DNA of 64,000 nt from Edwardsiella piscicida (GTDB lineage Bacteria; Pseudomonadota; Gammaproteobacteria; Enterobacterales; Enterobacteriaceae), in NCBI RefSeq assembly GCF_001896205.1, contig NZ_MPNU01000001.1, positions 1,969,503 through 2,033,502 on the forward strand, written 5' to 3'. Below, piece after piece: positions 1,964-31,738 of this stretch. Within the stretch, counting starts at the first letter, position 1. The number at the start of each line of letters is the position of its first letter. A program made the position numbers and the translations under genes. The notes beneath the pieces are model-generated. The model worked only from the letters and a program-made list of their open reading frames with translations. It searched no databases and had not been told where the DNA came from.

Positions 1964-3754
1964 CTACATGCGGAACTGACCTACGGTATCGGCCAGCTCA
2001 CTCGCCTGCCCCTGCAGCGCGGCGGAGGCCGCGGTTGACTCCTCAACCAGGGCGGCGTTCTGCTGCACCATCGTATCCAGCTGGATCACTGCGCTGTTGA
2101 TCTCACTGATGCCGCGGTTTTGCTCTTCCGCCGCGTTGGTGATCTCACCCATGATGGCGCTGACGGCGCCGACGCTGTTCACAATATCCGTCATGGTTTC
2201 ACCGCTTTGGCGTACCTGATGTGAGCCGGAGGCGACGCTGGTCACGGTTGAGTCGATCAGATTTTTGATCTCTTTGGCTGCCTGGGCGCTGCGCTGGGCC
2301 AGCGTTCTGACCTCGCCGGCGACAACGGCAAATCCACGCCCCTGCTCGCCCGCGCGAGCGGCTTCAACCGCGGCGTTGAGCGCCAGTATATTGGTTTGGA
2401 ATGCAATGCCATCGATGACCCCGGTGATGTCGCCGATTTTACCGGAGGCGACCTCAATCGAAGACATGGTTTCAATGACCTGCGAGATCATCTTGCCACC
2501 GCGCTGCGCTACCTGAACGGCAGAGCTGACGGCCTCATTGGCCTGCTGGGCAGAGGTCGCCGACTGCGCGACGGTGGAAGAGATCTGCTCCAACGCCGCC
2601 GAGGTCTGCTGCAGGCTGGCCGCCGCTGACTCGGTTCGACTAGAGAGATCTTCGTTGCCCGCGGCGATTTCCCGCGCGGCAATGCGAACCGATTCACTGG
2701 TGCTGTGAATAGAGACCATCACCCGGGCCAGCTTATCCACGAACTGGTTAAATGCGCGGGCGATCTGCGAGACCTCATCTTTGCCCTGCACATCCAATCG
2801 CTTGGTCAGATCCGCGTTGTTGCCGGCGCCGATGTTTTCCATTGCCTGGCGGATATGGAACAGCGGACGCAGCGCTCGACGCGTAACGATGCCGATCACC
2901 AGCGTGGCGAGAACGATCAGAACCAACAGTGCAATGCAGGAGGCCAGCAGCAGCGAACGCATTCCGGCCGTGGCCTCTGTCTTATCCATGGCCACGACGG
3001 TATACCAGCTGGTTCCAGAGACCGGCATCGCCAGCAGCAGTACATCACGGCCGGAAACGGTCGCCTCTACGGGTTTGCCGGAGGTTAACAGCTGGGTCAG
3101 GCTCAGGCCTGGCGCGATATTGGCCAGCGGCTTCAGCGTTAGCTGCTGATTGGGGTGAGCAATAATGGTTCCGTCAGCGTTGAGCAGCATGCCAAAGCTG
3201 TTTTCCGTGGGGCGGATGGATCGCACGTTGGCAATCACTTTATCCATGTGTACATCGCCCTCGACGACGCCGCTGATCGGCGTGTCCTGTGGGCCGGGCG
3301 CGGCAAAGGTTACCACGAGGGTATGGGTATTCGCATCCATATACGGTTCGGTGACGATCGGATGCCCCGCTTTTCTGGCATTGATAAACCAGGCGCGGGT
3401 CGTGGGATCGAAGCCCGGAGGAATGCTGGCGGGATCGGATGAGATCTCCACCTTGTTGGAGTACCCCATATCCACGCTGATAAAGCCACCGGCGTCGGCT
3501 ATCTGCTTTAAGAGCGGCCGGGGATCGCTGTCCCCCACGTGGGGCGTCAGCGACGCGATCAGCGCCGTGTTGTTTTCCACCCACTGGCGTACGGTGGCGG
3601 TATGGCTAGCGGTTAAAGAGCTTAGGGTATGTTGAATGGCTTCTGCGTTGGAGTCGCTGGCAATGCGGTAATTAATCAACGTATTGACACAAAGCGACGC
3701 CGCGACAATGACGCCGGTTGTCGCGAGGATCCGTGCCCGAATGGAATCGAACAT
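1964..3754 (-). CDS. Methyl-accepting chemotaxis protein with dCACHE sensor
   Basis: A 596-residue inner-membrane chemoreceptor. TM1 is near residues 10-30. A periplasmic double-Cache domain follows (about 35-270), with TM2 near 270-293, a HAMP domain to about 345, and the cytoplasmic signalling domain. The signalling hairpin contains [15 protein letters not shown], the tip that contacts CheA and CheW. The sensor carries RAWF near residue 120, resembling the R-x-W-Y/F part of amino-acid-binding dCACHE_1 receptors; the ligand is an inference only. The C-terminus ends ADTVGQFRM with no NWETF-type tether for CheR/CheB. A sigma-28-type promoter upstream supports co-expression with the flagellar late genes. 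It is a single-gene unit with its own terminator. Confidence 0.93.
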
Positions 3755-4797: not shown

Positions 4798-5805
4798 CTA
4801 CACCGATTTCAGGTGTACGTTGCCGACGTAGGTGTCTTCTTGCCAATACATCCGTTCGGCAACCTGAGCGCCCGGGTTCAGGGTGACGCCCCGCAGCACC
4901 CGCTTTTTAAAGTCGCTGTAGCCGGCGCGATCGATCAGATGCCCCATATGCAGATACACCGGCGTGCCGTCCAGCATTTCACGTTCAAATTCAAATATGT
5001 TGCTGATGACAGCCTGGATCACATCTTCGGTGACCCAGTTAAGAAAGACTTTGCCGACGCGCGGTGTCTTCTTACTGGTACGACCGCCCAGGCGCACCTG
5101 ATATAGCTGCTCTGGACGTCGCTGCCAGGCCAGCGTGGGACAGGCCAGCACGCACTCGCCGCAGCCGATGCACAGACTCTCCTGCTTCGTGGCCTTACCA
5201 TTCAGCAGAGAGAGACAGTCGACGGCATGGTGCTTACAGGCGCGAACGCAGGCGCCACAGCCGATGCAGCGCTCGGGGGTAAAGTGAATCCGGGCGACCC
5301 CCAGGATCCCCAGATCGGCCATGGTGGCCTTAGCGCAGTCGTTGGGGCAGCCGGCCAGCACCACCTTGAGATGATAGCGGCTGGGATAGATCAGCTTTTC
5401 CAGCCGCTGCGCCATACCGGTGGTATCCGTATTGGCCTTTTGGCAGATGCGGTTGCCCTGACAGGCCACGATATTACGCCCGCCGATGGCCTGATAGCCG
5501 GCCTTCGGATCCTCGACCTCAATCCCGCAGGTTTCAATTTCAATCTCACGGATAAAAGGCTCCAGCGCGGCGTTAACCTTGTCCATGTCTTCATAGCGAA
5601 TGCCGGGCATCGCCAGCTTTTGGCGGGTCGTCAGGTGAATCAGCCCGTTGCCATACTCTTCGGCGATCTGCTGGGCTACGCTCAGCAGACGCGCGGGCAG
5701 GATCCCCCCGGGGATCCTGACGCTGACCATGGCCTCAGAGCGCACCTTGGAGAAACGGTATTCATTCAGCGCCCGAGCGCGGTAGATATCGACATCGATA
5801 CTCAT
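4798..5805 (-). CDS. asrC: Anaerobic sulfite reductase subunit C (siroheme subunit)
   Basis: A 335-residue catalytic subunit of the AsrABC enzyme, which reduces sulfite to sulfide with NADH during anaerobic growth. The N-terminal half is the sulfite/nitrite reductase fold. Siroheme and its coupled [4Fe-4S] cluster are held by CQGNRIC (C-x5-C) and GCPNDC (C-x3-C). Two ferredoxin-type clusters are inserted after these: CIGCGACVRAC and CIGCGECVLACP. The start has AAGGAG upstream. It is the last gene of asrABC, 11 bases after asrB, and ends at a terminator. The family is known from Salmonella and clostridia and is absent from E. coli K-12. Confidence 0.96.
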   Translation of the reverse strand: MSIDVDIYRARALNEYRFSKVRSEAMVSVRIPGGILPARLLSVAQQIAEEYGNGLIHLTTRQKLAMPGIRYEDMDKVNAALEPFIREIEIETCGIEVEDPKAGYQAIGGRNIVACQGNRICQKANTDTTGMAQRLEKLIYPSRYHLKVVLAGCPNDCAKATMADLGILGVARIHFTPERCIGCGACVRACKHHAVDCLSLLNGKATKQESLCIGCGECVLACPTLAWQRRPEQLYQVRLGGRTSKKTPRVGKVFLNWVTEDVIQAVISNIFEFEREMLDGTPVYLHMGHLIDRAGYSDFKKRVLRGVTLNPGAQVAERMYWQEDTYVGNVHLKSV

Positions 5806-5816
5806 TATTGGCTCCT

Positions 5817-6635
5817 TCAGTCAACCATGGCGCGAGCGTCGGCATAGTTAAACACCGGCCCATCGACACAGATATAGACATCTCCCATGCGGCAGTGGCC
5901 GCACTTGCCGACAGAGCAGGCCATGCGACGCTCATAGTCGACCCAAATCTGTTCATCCCGCAGACCGTTTTTCTGCAGCATGGCGACCGTCGCTCGGATC
6001 ATCACCGGCGGCCCGACCACAATGGCTTGGATCTCCTCCGGCGCGCTGAAGTCCAGGTACGGCAGATGGTCGGTCACGCGCCCCAGGTGATAGTATTCGG
6101 CGATGGTGTCGCCCTCATCCAGGGTCAGACACAGGTTGTGCCGGCTGCGCCAGAAGTCGAGCTCGCGTTTGTACAGGACGCTGTCCGGATTCTTATAGCC
6201 TAAGATCATATCCAGGCTTTTCACCTGCTGCGGATGTTCGCAAAAATGGCGCATCAGCCCTTTTACCGGTGCGACGCCGGTACCGCCGGCGACCACGATC
6301 AGGCGCTTATCGTAAAACTGGCTCAGGTCATAGCCGTTGCCGTAGGCGCCGCGTAGCCAGACCTTATCACCGGCCTGCAGCGCAAACAGCGCGTCGGTCA
6401 CGTGGCCTACCCGGCGGATCAGCAGATCAACCCAGCCATCGCCATAGTCGGACACGGATATTGGCGCCTCGCCGACCAGCGGCAGAGAGACCTCCACAAA
6501 CTGGCCATAGTGCAGCGGAAAGTCGCAGGCAACGCGAAAGTTCCACTCCAGCGCCGTATGTTTCTCAATCTCCAGAATCGGGTATGCCGCTGGCAGCAGC
6601 ACCTGGTGACGATGTTCACAGTTACCGTTACACAT
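5817..6635 (-). CDS. asrB: Anaerobic sulfite reductase subunit B (FAD/NAD-binding)
   Basis: A 272-residue ferredoxin-NADP-reductase-like electron-transfer subunit. It has an FAD-binding beta barrel in the first third, the nucleotide-binding segment [16 protein letters not shown], and a C-terminal [2Fe-2S] cysteine cluster CSVGKCGHC followed by a late Cys, as in PyrK-type proteins. It passes electrons from NADH toward AsrC through AsrA. Its ATG overlaps the asrA stop region by a base, the usual sign of translational coupling. It is the middle gene of the operon. Confidence 0.96.
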
Positions 6636-7684
6636 TATTCCCGCTCCTCCTGCAGCACCCGGGCGACTTCAGCAGTCATCTTATTAATAATATTGGAAAA
6701 TTTTATATACTGCGGGCAACGATCGTCGCAGCGACCGCAGCCGACGCACATATGCTCACCCTCTTGGGCGCGGGCACGGTAGTCGTTGACCTTATGCAGG
6801 GCGCGAAAGCGTAGACGCTCGCTGACCTTGTCGCGGAACTGGTGGCCACCGGCCATATCGGTAAATCCGGCCACCATACAGCTGGCCCACTGGCGGCGGC
6901 GCTCGCCGCGCTGTGGATTTTCAGCGTAGGCGACATCGAAGATGCTGTAGCAGGTACAGGTTGGGCAACCGGTGGTGCAGCGGCCGCAGCCGATGCAGCG
7001 GTGCTGGTAGTCATCCCACAGCGGACTCTGCTGTAGGATCTGGCGCACGCGCTTGGGGTCATCGCATACCTGGTCCGGGGTCACCACTTTCTCGGGATTC
7101 TCGCTGACGAACCCGGCGCGATAGTTACACGCCTGCCCCAGCCCGGAAAAGGCGGCTTCTAGCGTTGGGTCGGTGATCTCGACGTTCACCCCCTGCTCAT
7201 CAAAACGCATGGCGGCGCTGTAGTTATCGGTACGGTTGGTTCCCATGGAAACGCAGAAGCAGTTTTCAAAGCTGGATGCGCACTCCATCAGCACAAACTT
7301 GATGCTGTCGCGTACCAATGCGTAGCTGTAGTCGGCATTATTGCCGTTCTTCAGATACATATAGTCAAGGCGACTCATGGCATTAATATCACAGGCGCGC
7401 GCCAGGATCAGACGTGGACGGCGATCGACATCGGCAATTTGAATCACATCGTTGTCGAAGTGAAACAGTGTCTCGGTAATGGGGGATATAATCGTGCTGG
7501 GTGCCATATGGGACTTTTCCTGCCAGACAATATCCCGCCAGCGAGTCACCTCTTGGTAGACGATATTATCAGTATCAGAAAAGCGTCCGCCGCGATACTC
7601 CGCCACCGGCGCATAAACCCGGTAGTGGCTGCGCAGGCGCGTCAGCGCCGCGTCGGCGTCGGCCTCAGACAAACGAAGTGACAT
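6635..7684 (-). CDS. asrA: Anaerobic sulfite reductase subunit A (iron-sulfur)
   Basis: A 349-residue iron-sulfur electron carrier and first gene of asrABC. Two [4Fe-4S] motifs are visible in the C-terminal half: [16 protein letters not shown] and [12 protein letters not shown]. The start is set by GGAGAAG 5 bases upstream. In Salmonella the operon is induced by sulfite without oxygen, but I see no clear FNR half-site pair in the upstream sequence here. The upstream gap to rlhA carries a perfect 20-bp palindrome about 200 bases before the start, which might be an operator. Confidence 0.95.
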
Positions 7685-26950: not shown

Positions 26951-27655
26951 TCAGCCCACCGTCTTTGGCCGCTGTGCCATCGCCGGCGTGGCCGCCAGTG
27001 TGAAACTATTGTCTATGCGCCTACAAATCTCAGCGAGAGGAACCACGCCGTCTAGGCGAAGGGTGACCCAATATTTTTTGTTCATGTGATAGCCGGGAAA
27101 GTATCTTCTGCCATCAACAAGCGTCGAAATATCGTCCGGGGCCATTTTTAAATCGATAACTTCAACCATATCGTCGTCGAGACCGCCCAGCTTTGCGCTC
27201 TTGATGCGCAATATGGCGCCGTACCACTTTCCATTATCCGACCGCCGAAAGATGGCATTATCAGGAGAGCGCGGCCATAAAAACTCCAGCTCACTGTGAT
27301 ATTTTTCTTTGATAAACCGAATGACCTCCTTTGCCTGTTCCGTTTTAAACGGATGGAGAGAAAAACACTTTTCCGCTATATTTATCAATTCATTTTCATA
27401 CTCCTCACGAATTTTACCCACGAAGGCGCCGGTCGCCGACCTGATACGATGTAATATGTACTCCTCCTCCGTGAGCCTATCCACAACCGCCGCAGATATT
27501 TCGCCATGCCGAGTGATTGTTACCGTCATAACGAACTGACCGTCGGCTACATCACGAGAGTAAATATAGCATTGTTCATTTTGGCGAAACCCATAGGCGC
27601 TCAGGCGTTGAACGTCGACCTCACGCCGTGCGAATATATCATTAATATCATGCAT
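26951..27655 (-). CDS. MmcQ/YjbR-family DNA-binding-fold protein
   Basis: A 234-residue protein. The C-terminal half has the YjbR (MmcQ-like) double-wing signature: a segment beginning at NAIFRRSDNGKWYGAI, then DLKMAPDDISTLVDG, GYHMNKKYWVTLRLDG, and a final helix. The N-terminal half (residues 1-110) is an extra domain seen in longer members of the family. Cellular role is unknown; the fold is thought to bind nucleic acid but no activity is shown. The ATG at the frame start is used. It sits next to the accessory island and has somewhat lower GC than its left neighbours. Confidence 0.8.
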   Translation of the reverse strand: MHDINDIFARREVDVQRLSAYGFRQNEQCYIYSRDVADGQFVMTVTITRHGEISAAVVDRLTEEEYILHRIRSATGAFVGKIREEYENELINIAEKCFSLHPFKTEQAKEVIRFIKEKYHSELEFLWPRSPDNAIFRRSDNGKWYGAILRIKSAKLGGLDDDMVEVIDLKMAPDDISTLVDGRRYFPGYHMNKKYWVTLRLDGVVPLAEICRRIDNSFTLAATPAMAQRPKTVG

Positions 27656-27872
27656 ATACCCTTGCCTTACAACCGCGAAACCATAGATAACAAGTTAAAA
27701 TATCTACCGCGTATAATCAATCAGGATGGATCGCATCGCCCGATGCGATATCCCCCGCGGGATCTTATCCTCAGTGTGATGGTCGCCCTGCGCTATCGCC
27801 ACCGTGCGGCGGGCGCAACTGAACCGTACCGGGTTTCTGGGAGACTACACTCTCAGTGAAAGGAGACCCGAT

Positions 27873-28205
27873 ATGACATCGACATCATCCAAGCGTTATT
27901 CTCCCGAGCTCCGTGAGCGAGCTGTCAGAATGCTGATAGAACAGCGGGAGAGTTACCCTTCTGAACATGCTGCCATCAAATCCATTGCTCCTAAAATCGG
28001 CTGTAGCATCGACACCCTACGCTATTGGCTTCGCCAGCATGAACGCGATGTTGGCGGCGGTGATGCTGGACTCAAGACTGCCGAACGCCAACGGCTGAAG
28101 GCGTTGGAGCGGGAGGTTAGAGAGCGTCGACGCAGCAACGATATCCTGCGGCAGACCTCTGCTTATTTTGCGAAGGCGGAGTTCGACCGTCTGTGGAAAA
28201 AATAA
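27873..28205 (+). CDS. IS3-family transposase OrfA
   Basis: A 110-residue OrfA with a helix-turn-helix (ERAVRMLIEQRESYPSE, then IGCSIDTLRYWLRQHE) and a C-terminal leucine-zipper-like helix from LKALEREVRERRRSNDILR to AKAEFDRLWKK. AAGGAG lies upstream of the ATG. The 3' end overlaps the start of orfB, the site where programmed frameshifting normally makes OrfAB. Since orfB is deleted, only OrfA can be made, and OrfA alone often acts as a repressor of transposition in this family. Confidence 0.9.
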   Translation: MTSTSSKRYSPELRERAVRMLIEQRESYPSEHAAIKSIAPKIGCSIDTLRYWLRQHERDVGGGDAGLKTAERQRLKALEREVRERRRSNDILRQTSAYFAKAEFDRLWKK

Positions 28206-28469
28206 TGCCGCTGCTAGATACCCTCTGCGGTAGTCATGGGGTCGGACCGGTATGTCATGAGCTGAATATCGCCCCATCGATGTACTACCGGCACCAAAAT
28301 TACCGTCAGCTCCCTGAAACACGCAGTCAGCGTGACCAGCGAGATGAACATCTGAAGCTGGAGATACAGCGTGAATCGTCGGTTACTGGAACGAGTCGGT
28401 CACATCCCCCCGGCTGAAGCCGAAAAAGCGTATTACGCTTCCATCGGAAACGGGGTTATGCCAGCCTGA
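28193..28469 (+). pseudogene. IS3-family transposase OrfB remnant
   Basis: The first part reads MPLLDTLCGSHGVGPVCHEL up to KLEIQRE, the normal start of IS3 OrfB. It is then joined out of frame to the normal C-terminus, NRRLLERVGHIPPAEAEKAY, ending at the TGA at 28467. The integrase core with the DDE triad is missing. This is a simple internal deletion, not a sequencing frameshift. Confidence 0.88.
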
Positions 28470-28627: not shown

Positions 28628-29137
28628 TTACTCGAAAGCTTTATGGAATGTAACTATCCCAGAAGGCAATTGATTAATATTGATTAGTGATTGTGCCAAA
28701 AAATATTTAGCAGGAACACCCTCAACAATGAACCGATGATTATGATGGAAACCAAAACGTGAGTAATACTCTGGGTCACCCAAAACAACAAGGCCATCAA
28801 TATTTCTTTCTTTTAACAACAAAATCGATTGTTCTATCATTTTACTGCCAATTCCCTGCCTCTGCCGCGAAGGTGAAACAGAGATAGGCGCCAGAGCATG
28901 CCAGCGGGTTGTTATCCCATCTATTTTTACGGATGAATAGGCAAGATGACCAATAATCCCACTATCATCCTCCGCGACCAATGATAATGTCATTGCTTCC
29001 GCATCACGTAATCTATTGATAATCATATGCTCATTTGGGGATGAACCCGGTTCATGATGAGGATGTCCTGTAAACGCCAATAAAGTTAACCTTTCTATAT
29101 GGTTTATATCTTGCTTCTTTTCTTCTCTGATAATCAT
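28628..29137 (-). CDS. GNAT-family N-acetyltransferase
   Basis: A 169-residue acetyltransferase resembling YhbS-type GNATs. The acetyl-CoA loop is RQRQGIGSKMIEQSI, the mid strand LAPISVSP precedes it, and LVVLGDPEYYSRFGF is the typical C-terminal YhbS motif. The substrate is unknown. The start is the ATG one base after the stop codon of the MerR-methyltransferase gene, with its ribosome site inside that gene's end, so the two are translationally coupled. Base composition is low in GC relative to the window. A pairing with a MerR/methyltransferase protein suggests detoxification or self-protection, but that is inference. Confidence 0.88.
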   Translation of the reverse strand: MIIREEKKQDINHIERLTLLAFTGHPHHEPGSSPNEHMIINRLRDAEAMTLSLVAEDDSGIIGHLAYSSVKIDGITTRWHALAPISVSPSRQRQGIGSKMIEQSILLLKERNIDGLVVLGDPEYYSRFGFHHNHRFIVEGVPAKYFLAQSLININQLPSGIVTFHKAFE

Positions 29138-29138
29138 T

Positions 29139-30293
29139 TTATTGTCTCTTTTGTATAATAAAAATTTGATATCCATACTCCCCCAGACAGGTATCATGGA
29201 TATCTATTTCTCTTTTCAGGTCCTGCCAAGCCATCGAGTGGCTCAATTTACTTTTTAAAAGTTCAATTCTTTTTTTCAGCGGCGAAAGATAAAGATCCCA
29301 GGCTTCTTTACTTATTTCGAAATCTGAGATTAGATCGTAACCTGCTTTTTTAATCAGCATCTTATTTTGTGCAACATTTAACATGGCTGGATAATTTTTC
29401 AACCAGAAATTTCTAGCGCTTTCACTAGGTGTATTACTTAACCAAACTATTTCACTGATGACCAGACATCCACCAACTCTCAGATACTTCTTCCATGACA
29501 ATAAAGCATTATTAAATCCCATGATGTAGGCACTGCCTTCTGACCAAATAAGATCAAATACGCCATAGGCGAAAGGAAGTGCTCTCATACTGGCACAGCA
29601 CAGATTTACGCGGTGACGCAGACCATATAACTCATTCAAATATAGTGGTTCATTATCTAGAGCTGTAACGTGAGCCTGAGTATTTGAAGCCAACAATCGA
29701 GTCGCCACCCCACGTCCACAACCAATCTCAAGAATGTTATCTAGATTATCGGGAACCATGCTTAACGCTCTTAACGTATCTGGATCAGAGCCTGGTCCAA
29801 GGCGAATGAGACCGAGAAATATTTCATTAAAGTCAGACATATATGAATCATGCTCATGAATATTTCTTGAAAGGTTGCGAATTCTTAGAGCCTCTTTTTC
29901 ATTAATCCCCTGAGTATTGAGCCAGCGCAAATGCACATCTGGCGATATTTTTTCCAACTCCAGATGCCAAGTCCGTTCTTCTGAAACACCTAACATAGAC
30001 TCCAGTAACATTTTAGCCCGTAACTTTATGGCTATATCATCTTCGAGTTGTTTCAACCTTGCTGTTAAGAGTTGCTTATCACTCTTCACATTTATACATA
30101 CCAGACACTCCTTGAGAGTCAGGCCTGCAGCATGCAGATGGATGACTAATTGCAGTCTTTGAACATCTTTTTCGCTGTAACTCCTATAACCATTAGGAAG
30201 CCTGATGCTTTTAATAATACCGAGCTTTTCATAGTAAAGCAGCGCCGTGCGAGATAGACCTACAATGGCGGCAACCTCTGATATTCGGAACAT
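29139..30293 (-). CDS. MerR-type regulator fused to SAM methyltransferase
   Basis: A 384-residue two-domain protein. Residues 1-70 form a MerR winged helix-turn-helix (FRISEVAAIVGLSRTALLYY, then LPNGYRSYSEKDVQRL). Residues about 75-105 form the dimerisation helix. Residues about 185-290 are a class I SAM methyltransferase: motif I ILEIGCGRGVATRLL, acidic motif II ALDNEPLY, motif IV FDLIWSEGSAY and VGGCLVISE. A helical C-terminal extension follows. In usual MerR proteins the C-terminal part senses the effector, so here the methyltransferase may be sensor, modifier or both. GGAGG lies 6 bases before the chosen ATG. It is AT-rich and probably horizontally acquired, and is co-transcribed with the GNAT gene. 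I do not know a characterised homologue. Confidence 0.88.
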   Translation of the reverse strand: MFRISEVAAIVGLSRTALLYYEKLGIIKSIRLPNGYRSYSEKDVQRLQLVIHLHAAGLTLKECLVCINVKSDKQLLTARLKQLEDDIAIKLRAKMLLESMLGVSEERTWHLELEKISPDVHLRWLNTQGINEKEALRIRNLSRNIHEHDSYMSDFNEIFLGLIRLGPGSDPDTLRALSMVPDNLDNILEIGCGRGVATRLLASNTQAHVTALDNEPLYLNELYGLRHRVNLCCASMRALPFAYGVFDLIWSEGSAYIMGFNNALLSWKKYLRVGGCLVISEIVWLSNTPSESARNFWLKNYPAMLNVAQNKMLIKKAGYDLISDFEISKEAWDLYLSPLKKRIELLKSKLSHSMAWQDLKREIDIHDTCLGEYGYQIFIIQKRQ

Positions 30294-30312: not shown

Positions 30313-30343
30313 AGTATCAACTATGAAGCAATAGACGGGTCAA
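30313..30343 (-). promoter_or_regulatory. MerR-type promoter with 19-bp spacer
   Basis: On the minus strand the -35 element TTGACC (30343-30338) and -10 element GATACT (30318-30313) are 19 bp apart. This over-long spacing is typical of MerR-controlled promoters. The spacer contains the dyad CTAT-N6-ATAG (30321-30334). It would start a very short leader ahead of the MerR-methyltransferase gene, implying autoregulation. Confidence 0.55.
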
Positions 30344-30580
30344 TACAAAAATATCTATTTGGCTCAAACAAATATCACTCTTATTTGTTATCGAATTGTA
30401 ACGGAAAAGCGAGTAAGAACCGACCGCTCATACAGGATAAACCACAGGTTTATGGTTTTAAACGCTTAGCCCAGAGTTGACAGAAATTTCGGCGGTTCCG
30501 GCGTAGAACCCCAAGAGGATAGAAATACTATGATAGCTAACGTTCATCCTGAACGCGTGATACGAGATCGCGACGAGAAC

Positions 30581-30671: not shown

Positions 30672-31115
30672 ATGTTAAAAATCAGAATGTCACGACTATC
30701 TGAGGCACCCGAAATTATACAAATTTGGCGCAATGCTGTAGATGCTACGCACGATTTTCTCACCGCCCACGACCGGCAACAGATCGAACATGAGGTTATC
30801 AGCTTTTTTTCACAAACCCCCGTCTGGGTTGCAACTAACCAGGAAGATCGTCCACTGGGCTTTATGTTTTTGCATGATGGCCATCTAGAGGCGCTTTTTG
30901 TCGATGCTTCTGCGCGCGGGCTTGGCGTCGGCAAACGGTTGATATCACATGCACTGGCGCTTCACCCTGATTTAAGCGTCGATGTAAATGAACAAAACCA
31001 GCAGGCCGTAGGGTTTTATCAACATATGGGCTTTAACGTCTCAGGGCGTTCCGACCTGGATAGCCAGGGAAGGCCGTATCCCCTATTACACCTGCGCAAA
31101 GCCGACGGATGTTAA
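30672..31115 (+). CDS. yjaB: GNAT-family acetyltransferase YjaB
   Basis: A 147-residue acetyltransferase matching E. coli YjaB (147 aa) along its length: IWRNAVDATHDFL near the N-terminus, HLEALFVDASARGLGVGKRL with the acetyl-CoA loop, and the C-terminal VNEQNQQAVGFYQHMGF and GRPYPLLHL. Physiological substrate is not established. AAGGT lies upstream of the ATG. In E. coli yjaB is elsewhere on the map, so its position here within an accessory stretch is different. It converges on an XRE-cupin gene 20 bases away. Confidence 0.9.
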   Translation: MLKIRMSRLSEAPEIIQIWRNAVDATHDFLTAHDRQQIEHEVISFFSQTPVWVATNQEDRPLGFMFLHDGHLEALFVDASARGLGVGKRLISHALALHPDLSVDVNEQNQQAVGFYQHMGFNVSGRSDLDSQGRPYPLLHLRKADGC

Positions 31116-31135: not shown

Positions 31136-31738
31136 TCATTTATTTTTTTGGCAAAAAGCCACAACGTATGAACAGCTCTGCTCCCTATCAGGGTTATTCA
31201 TTTGATATTCGCTTGTAAAGGTAAGGGCAATACAGTCTCCAGCCTGGAGATGATGGTTCTGATGATTGACCCGAAAATCAAGGCAGCCACTCAGCATCCA
31301 GAGTGTTTGCCCTGAAAGATGCTCATTCGCGCAGGCAGGGATCGTTAGTTGACCCAGCGCGGGAATGTCGACTCTTATCAGCTCTGGACATGCGCCCACG
31401 GGGGAGAGAGACCAGCGAGTAATGCCCGACTGTTCATCTGTCCAATGCTGCTGCTGATGGGCAAAGCGCACCCGTGAATTCTGGTGTTGCTCAAGCTCTG
31501 CGAAAAATGTTGAGAGCGTAATATTCATGGCGCTAGCTAAGCGACTCAGTATTGTCGCGCTGGGACTGGAGGTGCCCCGTTCGACCTTGCTAATCATGGC
31601 CTGGCTGACGCCCGATCGCTGCGCAAGCTCTGCAACCGTCCAGCCGCGTGTTTTTCTGTGTTTAAGCAATAAGCGCGCAATGTCGCTATCGACTATCTGA
31701 TTTTTAGATGTTTTATCCATTTTCACACTCATGCTCAC
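31136..31738 (-). CDS. XRE-family regulator with C-terminal cupin domain
   Basis: A 200-residue regulator of the SutR/PuuR architecture. The helix-turn-helix is at about 30-80 (GWTVAELAQRSGVSQAMISKVERG). A cupin domain covers about 110-195, with HLSGQTLWMLSGCLDF and LQAGDCIALTF. The cupin probably binds a small ligand. Start is uncertain: ATG at 31738 is used, but an in-frame ATG at 31720 is equally placed relative to purine-rich sequence. It converges on yjaB. Regulators of this type are often encoded beside a GNAT gene, so yjaB may be a target. Confidence 0.88.
   Translation of the reverse strand: MSMSVKMDKTSKNQIVDSDIARLLLKHRKTRGWTVAELAQRSGVSQAMISKVERGTSSPSATILSRLASAMNITLSTFFAELEQHQNSRVRFAHQQQHWTDEQSGITRWSLSPVGACPELIRVDIPALGQLTIPACANEHLSGQTLWMLSGCLDFRVNHQNHHLQAGDCIALTFTSEYQMNNPDREQSCSYVVAFCQKNK

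Follow-up and report, generated by a model that had tools for sequence, protein, structure and literature searches.

In a 64,000-nucleotide stretch of the Edwardsiella piscicida genome (contig NZ_MPNU01000001.1, positions 1,969,503 to 2,033,502; hereafter the window), a gene that joins a MerR DNA-binding domain to an S-adenosylmethionine (SAM) methyltransferase is followed by a gene for a GCN5-related N-acetyltransferase (GNAT). On balance, this pair would probably represent an inducible module for the inactivation of a small molecule, with signs of mobility, whose regulator carries its own methyltransferase. The features that compose it are the following:

29139..30293, minus strand: MerR–SAM-methyltransferase fusion gene, 384 amino acids; ATG at 30293, stop ends at 29139
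30108..30290, minus strand: MerR DNA-binding domain, fusion residues 2–62; Pfam MerR_1 (PF13411), 1.8e-14, above cut-off
29847..29981, minus strand: conserved linker between MerR and methyltransferase, residues about 105–149
29148..29846, minus strand: class I SAM-methyltransferase domain, fusion residues about 150–382
28628..29137, minus strand: GNAT acetyltransferase gene, subfamily A, 169 amino acids; ATG at 29137, stop ends at 28628
30313..30343, minus strand: MerR-type operator/promoter, TTGACC-CGTCTATTGCTTCATAGTT-GATACT, with a 19-base-pair (bp) spacer; it starts 50 bp before the fusion start codon

As the initial annotation had claimed, the MerR domain and the methyltransferase belong to one protein, in which Pfam Methyltransf_25 matches residues 187–275 at 6.6e-11, and a single base (29138) separates the fusion stop from the GNAT start in the open reading frames. 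The pair is also AT-rich, with a GC content of 39.8% in the fusion gene and 39.0% in the GNAT gene vs 59.1% in the whole window. A Rossmann-type fold, a glycine-rich motif, and an acidic ribose contact are present in the fusion, as in class I SAM-methyltransferases, and its SAM-binding residues, the loss of which the initial annotation had regarded as fatal to its proposal, are kept across the aligned homologues. Moreover, conservation extends to a proposed substrate pocket, where E252 is kept in 46/46, W284 in 45/46, and W297 in 43/46 sequences, Y335 is Tyr or Phe in 46/46, and Y373 is Tyr or Phe in 45/46. The structural relatives of this domain are small-molecule methyltransferases, several of them in natural-product pathways. 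A set of 50 VIA rows is uninformative on the MerR part, since the lowest model start is 109 and none covers it. The window GNAT matches Acetyltransf_7 (3.4e-9, above cut-off) and displays QRQGIG as its Q/RxxGxG/A acetyl-CoA motif. Compared with the copy of Kluyvera intermedia, a homologue with 87.5% identity, the ratio of nonsynonymous to synonymous substitution rates is 0.222 for the fusion and 0.155 for the GNAT; thus, both genes are under purifying selection.

The promoter is the second line of evidence. In the MerR family, to which the one-component regulator BmrR belongs, a dimer sits on a promoter whose unusually long spacer of 19–20 bp holds the operator, and binding of the ligand deforms the DNA in a way that allows RNA polymerase to initiate. 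The MerR-type promoter claimed for the pair was recovered, with a 19-bp spacer both in the window and in a conserved 31-bp site, TTGACC-TGTCTATAGCTTCATAGTT-TATAGT in consensus, which precedes 47/49 surveyed genes; the two genes devoid of it are standalone methyltransferases (L088, L089). The weight matrix was built from 38 distinct sites, and the consensus scores 40.3 bits. The survey started from 53 matching genomes, of which the neighbourhoods of 40, together with the window and eight loci from other collections, gave 49 loci; these were reduced to 46 distinct ones by removing L088, L089, and L019, a duplicate of L067. Twelve genomes stand outside the neighbourhood table (G026, G144, G163, G220, G268, G277, G307, G316, G326, G334, G340, and G362), some of which were opened later for other reasons. 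At up to three mismatches genome-wide, the operator occurs in 49/50 carrier genomes and its reversed-pattern control in 0/50; in G163, the sole carrier without it, the match begins at residue 114 and contains an internal stop. In the genome of the window, the site at 30313..30343 is the only one found. Throughout the sample of the window's order, the operator is present in 47/48 carriers vs 12/346 other genomes (Fisher 2.4e-48, relatedness ignored), and the reversed pattern in 3/394. A generic MerR promoter was mostly rejected as an explanation of the site.

Eleven of the 12 non-carrier genomes with the operator were opened (G128 was left out). In G120, the gene behind the site was a fusion that is truncated; in G287, G065, and G297, it was an orphan hydrolase; in G303, G367, and G331, a member of a 132-residue protein family; and in G275 and G247, a short MerR gene lacking the methyltransferase, with another such gene following in G331. 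G255 had a different gene and G026 an unlikely site. Thus, given the genes behind these sites, weaker relatives of the operator seem to serve related MerR proteins as well. An operator-like site also precedes a protein of about 132–152 residues with a GHLxIAWLYL-like motif at L133, L178, L179, and L182, and at L182 a short MerR gene comes after it; the one member scanned had no match in Pfam or NCBIfam.

The third line of evidence is the recurrence of the same operator before other enzymes. A GNAT gene adjoins the fusion at 28/46 distinct loci, with 14 cases of subfamily A, that of the window, and 14 of subfamily B; the two subfamilies share 19–23% identity. Judged by open reading frame starts, 22 of the 28 adjoining GNAT genes begin at most 40 bp downstream of the fusion and have no operator of their own, and the other six, located upstream or 59–81 bp downstream, all have their own operator (at L070, a GNAT with its own operator is split across two frames). 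Chance adjacency of fusion and GNAT was rejected because the GNATs that are not closely downstream have their own operator, and a single GNAT family co-inherited with the fusion was rejected because the two subfamilies lie on different tree branches. In G150 and G075, the fusion is solo and the operator stands before a distant GNAT-A, which brings operator-linked GNATs to 30/46 loci. At L003, L004, and L072, two small same-strand genes (about 142 and 128 residues), VOC-like by eye, come after the GNAT-B gene. An alpha/beta-hydrolase lies behind a distant copy of the operator in 10 carrier genomes and mostly comprises 290–314 residues and, on visual inspection, seems to carry a signal peptide; its open frame has just 113 residues in G316, whereas G114 has copies of 290 and 75 residues. 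In G134 (L058), a hydrolase 67% identical follows the fusion directly, and operator and hydrolase are kept together in three genomes without a counted fusion. As read from the DNA, the putative regulon is thus wider than the initial annotation knew, comprising GNATs under their own operators, a distant GNAT, and a hydrolase.

A mechanism can be proposed for these arrangements. The MerR domain would bind the 31-bp operator across its 19-bp spacer and, by analogy with other MerR regulators, would activate transcription when the ligand is present. The operator would then drive the gene of the regulator itself and that of the GNAT and, in some relatives, that of the hydrolase too. The methyltransferase domain would most likely act on the inducer or on a close relative of it. 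In this way, a single ligand would induce its own methylation and acetylation, and in some genomes its hydrolysis, raising both enzymes until it is consumed and the module turns off. A more ambitious version is offered tentatively, as a possibility: the MerR-methyltransferase would methylate its own inducer, uniting sensing and resetting in one polypeptide, and the operator would recruit interchangeable second enzymes (two GNAT types and a hydrolase) into a modular regulon that inactivates antibiotics and is disseminated by plasmids and Tn3-type elements.

Several observations weigh against the inactivation module. No operator-linked GNAT was found at 16/46 loci (14 genomes were searched whole for the operator, and L005 and L018 at the locus only). 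The genome-wide searches of the solo genomes covered GNAT-A and the hydrolase; among the 16 searched for GNAT-A, four have a relative, with an operator in the already mentioned G150 and G075 and without it in G012 and G134. Outside the 46 loci, the fusion of G719 has the operator and no GNAT within 7.5 kb, and the plasmid record L167 has the operator and no annotated GNAT adjoining the fusion. Among other later finds, L168 has the operator at an unannotated site, L169 has a GNAT upstream, and G1236 contains only the methyltransferase part, with a stop and no operator. The GNAT is thus a frequent, not an obligatory partner, since an operator-linked one was not found at 16 loci. The initial annotation had expected a conserved GNAT neighbour, and this expectation is borne out by its recurrence and limited by its absences; likewise, its idea of a compact sense-and-inactivate system is partly supported, by the kept SAM residues and the recurrent GNAT. 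Furthermore, no NCBIfam resistance model scored above cut-off for the fusion, the tested GNATs, or the hydrolase, two Morganellaceae plasmids viewed widely lacked annotated resistance genes up to 15 kb away (their gene table is incomplete), and no biosynthetic neighbour was identified near the loci. Carrier genomes are also mutually related, so their counts are not independent. As for known activities, the window GNAT reached 19.3 bits against a cut-off of 380 in the model of the antibiotic acetyltransferase Sat4, a GNAT-B was far below the cut-offs of the curated AAC models, and the sole PADLOC hits, sought with anti-phage defence in mind, were partial ones to mad1 and mad2, either of which spans part of the fusion.

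Many MerR regulators have ligand-binding C-terminal domains, and the methyltransferase domain might accordingly be a non-catalytic sensor of SAM, S-adenosylhomocysteine, or a ligand, with the chemistry performed by the GNAT and the hydrolase only. The linker is relevant here. Its residues W124, G129, S142, and H148 are invariant in 46/46 aligned rows, it has low AlphaFold confidence, and in the fusion model a long helix (residues 73–100) comes after the MerR domain. The linker pattern is also seen after the MerR domain of one paralogue and of four short MerR proteins that lack a methyltransferase; thus, MerR plus linker can stand alone, which suits a sensor. Such proteins, of 169–182 residues, are found behind or near an operator-like site at L130, L180, L181, and L182, and at L135 (G197:C18) the operator is followed by a GNAT and then by a diverged MerR-methyltransferase paralogue of 433 residues. 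However, conservation of the proposed pocket beyond the SAM contacts, the absence of methionine or SAM genes from those behind the operator, and a Streptomyces relative with the methyltransferase but no MerR domain make a purely sensory role doubtful.

The inactivation module is counted as favoured by the plasmid carriage of its relatives and by a Tn3-type end in the window, and its distribution and setting are also informative about a different function. In the window's order, 51/394 genomes match the fusion at E ≤ 1e-30, three of them (G026, G072, G240) in the methyltransferase part only and excluded from carriers; the search for the same domain fusion, suggested by the initial annotation, thus returned it well beyond the window. 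In the window's family, the figure is 3/295 at the same threshold, and at E ≤ 1e-40 the class sample gives 2/321 and the phylum sample 11/398; the samples overlap, and the window's own genome is counted in each. The Enterobacterales of GTDB include Vibrio, and one matching genome of the order sample has a replicon of 332,195 bases in common with Vibrio fortis, which places Vibrio in that sample. In the plasmid collection, records from Proteus, Providencia, Morganella, Vibrio, Photobacterium, and Pseudoalteromonas carry full-length relatives at 47–48% identity. The same-genus genomes G513 and G601 have no fusion match at E ≤ 1e-30, megablast against complete E. coli genomes found no close DNA copy, and in plasmids the only close DNA match is a promoter remnant. 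A phage home is unsupported, since 80% of the fusion is covered nowhere in the phage records; one full-length relative in viral contigs (L092) starts at the first base of its contig, so that its upstream DNA cannot be judged.

Two features flank the pair:

30478..30512, minus strand: Tn3-type terminal inverted repeat, 35 bp, representing a single end of the pair; outer end at 30512
27819..28376, plus strand: insertion sequence relic with an HTH_Tnp_1 transposase fragment, on the far side of the module from the repeat

The insertion sequence relic noticed initially beside the pair is 97% identical to another site in the same genome. The stretch at 30478..30512, which is unique in the genome when up to three mismatches are allowed, is read as a Tn3-type terminal repeat because of its GGGG start and of an inverted pair in the Serratia nevei plasmid pSNEVa; its orientation places the fusion–GNAT module on the inner side. 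DNA resembling the 35-bp repeat occurs in 1,088 plasmid records and lies under an annotated Tn3-family transposase in 17/20 listed rows of one search and 9/12 of another. In pSNEVa (L186:4862-5221), two such repeats stand, by eye, in inverted orientation at a distance of about 360 bp, and the short element that they delimit contains 221 bp with 96.4% identity to the promoter region and repeat of the window; it thus keeps the fusion promoter region without the fusion gene. The short peptides of this element have no Pfam match; its DNA has 1,626 similar records, and among the 12 listed, one is annotated as a Tn3-family transposase and the rest are unannotated or 'hypothetical'. A second inverted repeat enclosing the module was not found in the window or the genome (up to three mismatches), and the Kluyvera intermedia copy has no Tn3-type repeat within 7.2 kb. 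Between the two matching flanks, G513 has about 0.9 kb and the window about 5.0 kb. The most plausible reading is that the gene pair was acquired as an insert. Nearby, a second GNAT matches the NCBIfam equivalog PRK10514 above cut-off (30672–31115, plus strand), with a helix-turn-helix regulator close to it (31136–31738), and a 234-residue protein (26951–27655) has a YjbR domain confined to its C-terminal half (residues 118–220).

This distribution bears on whether the genes could instead constitute a regulated pathway for modifying an endogenous or diet-derived metabolite rather than a toxin. Fusions lacking a GNAT are common (16/46), the two plasmid copies viewed have no annotated resistance gene alongside, and the hydrolase is similar to general esterases and lactonases, all of which would be compatible with such a pathway. 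It is nevertheless unlikely, because the patchy occurrence in family and class, the plasmids, and the Tn3-type end are more in keeping with an accessory stress function. A module specific to ribosome-targeting compounds, to which RsgA-type GTPases and ABC-F-like ATPases would belong, is very unlikely: rsgA abuts the GNAT gene in L017 and overlaps a methyltransferase–GNAT gene in L015, and ABC-F-like genes lie near the fusions of L002, L070, and L072 and the distant GNAT of L131, but rsgA occurs at only 1/46 distinct fusion loci and on two near-identical Streptomyces plasmids, and neither rsgA nor an ABC-F-like gene has its own operator in L002, L017, L070, or L072. Both were considered as core members and set aside as rare. 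In Pseudoalteromonas L017, rsgA (5724–6764) begins 5 bp downstream of the GNAT gene, and in Streptomyces L015 the end of rsgA (gene at 1967–3064) overlaps the start of the methyltransferase–GNAT gene by 4 bp, so that the two cases come from two phyla; the ABC-F-like genes were recognized visually or from a pair of Walker A motifs.

Compared with known systems, the predicted inactivation module combines familiar parts in an unfamiliar way. The fusion shares with MerR regulators (CueR, TipA, and Mta among the matches) the MerR domain, the long helix after it, the 19-bp spacer, and an operator that precedes its own gene; however, where these regulators have a ligand- or metal-binding C-terminal domain, the fusion has a full SAM-methyltransferase, preceded by a conserved linker. 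The Bacteroides proteins BVU_3255 and BT_2972 (3t7s, 3svz) and 3kkz, 30–32% identical over the domain, share its SAM-contact residues and aromatic pocket, but they are standalone enzymes of unproven substrate without a MerR domain. The Streptomyces protein WP_331743578.1, an independent fusion known from two near-identical plasmids, unites the same methyltransferase type and a GNAT in one chain, and its alignment with the Proteus pair, at 33%, extends across both genes; it differs in having no MerR domain and in adjoining rsgA, and the operator was not found in its 6.8-kb locus. Ada is both a transcription regulator and a methyltransferase, but it takes the methyl group irreversibly from damaged DNA and is neither SAM-dependent nor a MerR protein. 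In the open-access literature (subscription papers being mostly outside the scope), no published description of a MerR-methyltransferase fusion and no characterised homologue were found, which agrees with the initial statement that no characterised example was known.

If the proposed module is real, an enzymatic effector domain would be added to the MerR family. Moreover, its regulon would be readable from DNA, with candidate inactivating enzymes encoded behind the 31-bp operator. Should the inducers be antibiotics, an unrecognised inactivation system would already be present on plasmids of Proteus, Providencia, and Morganella.
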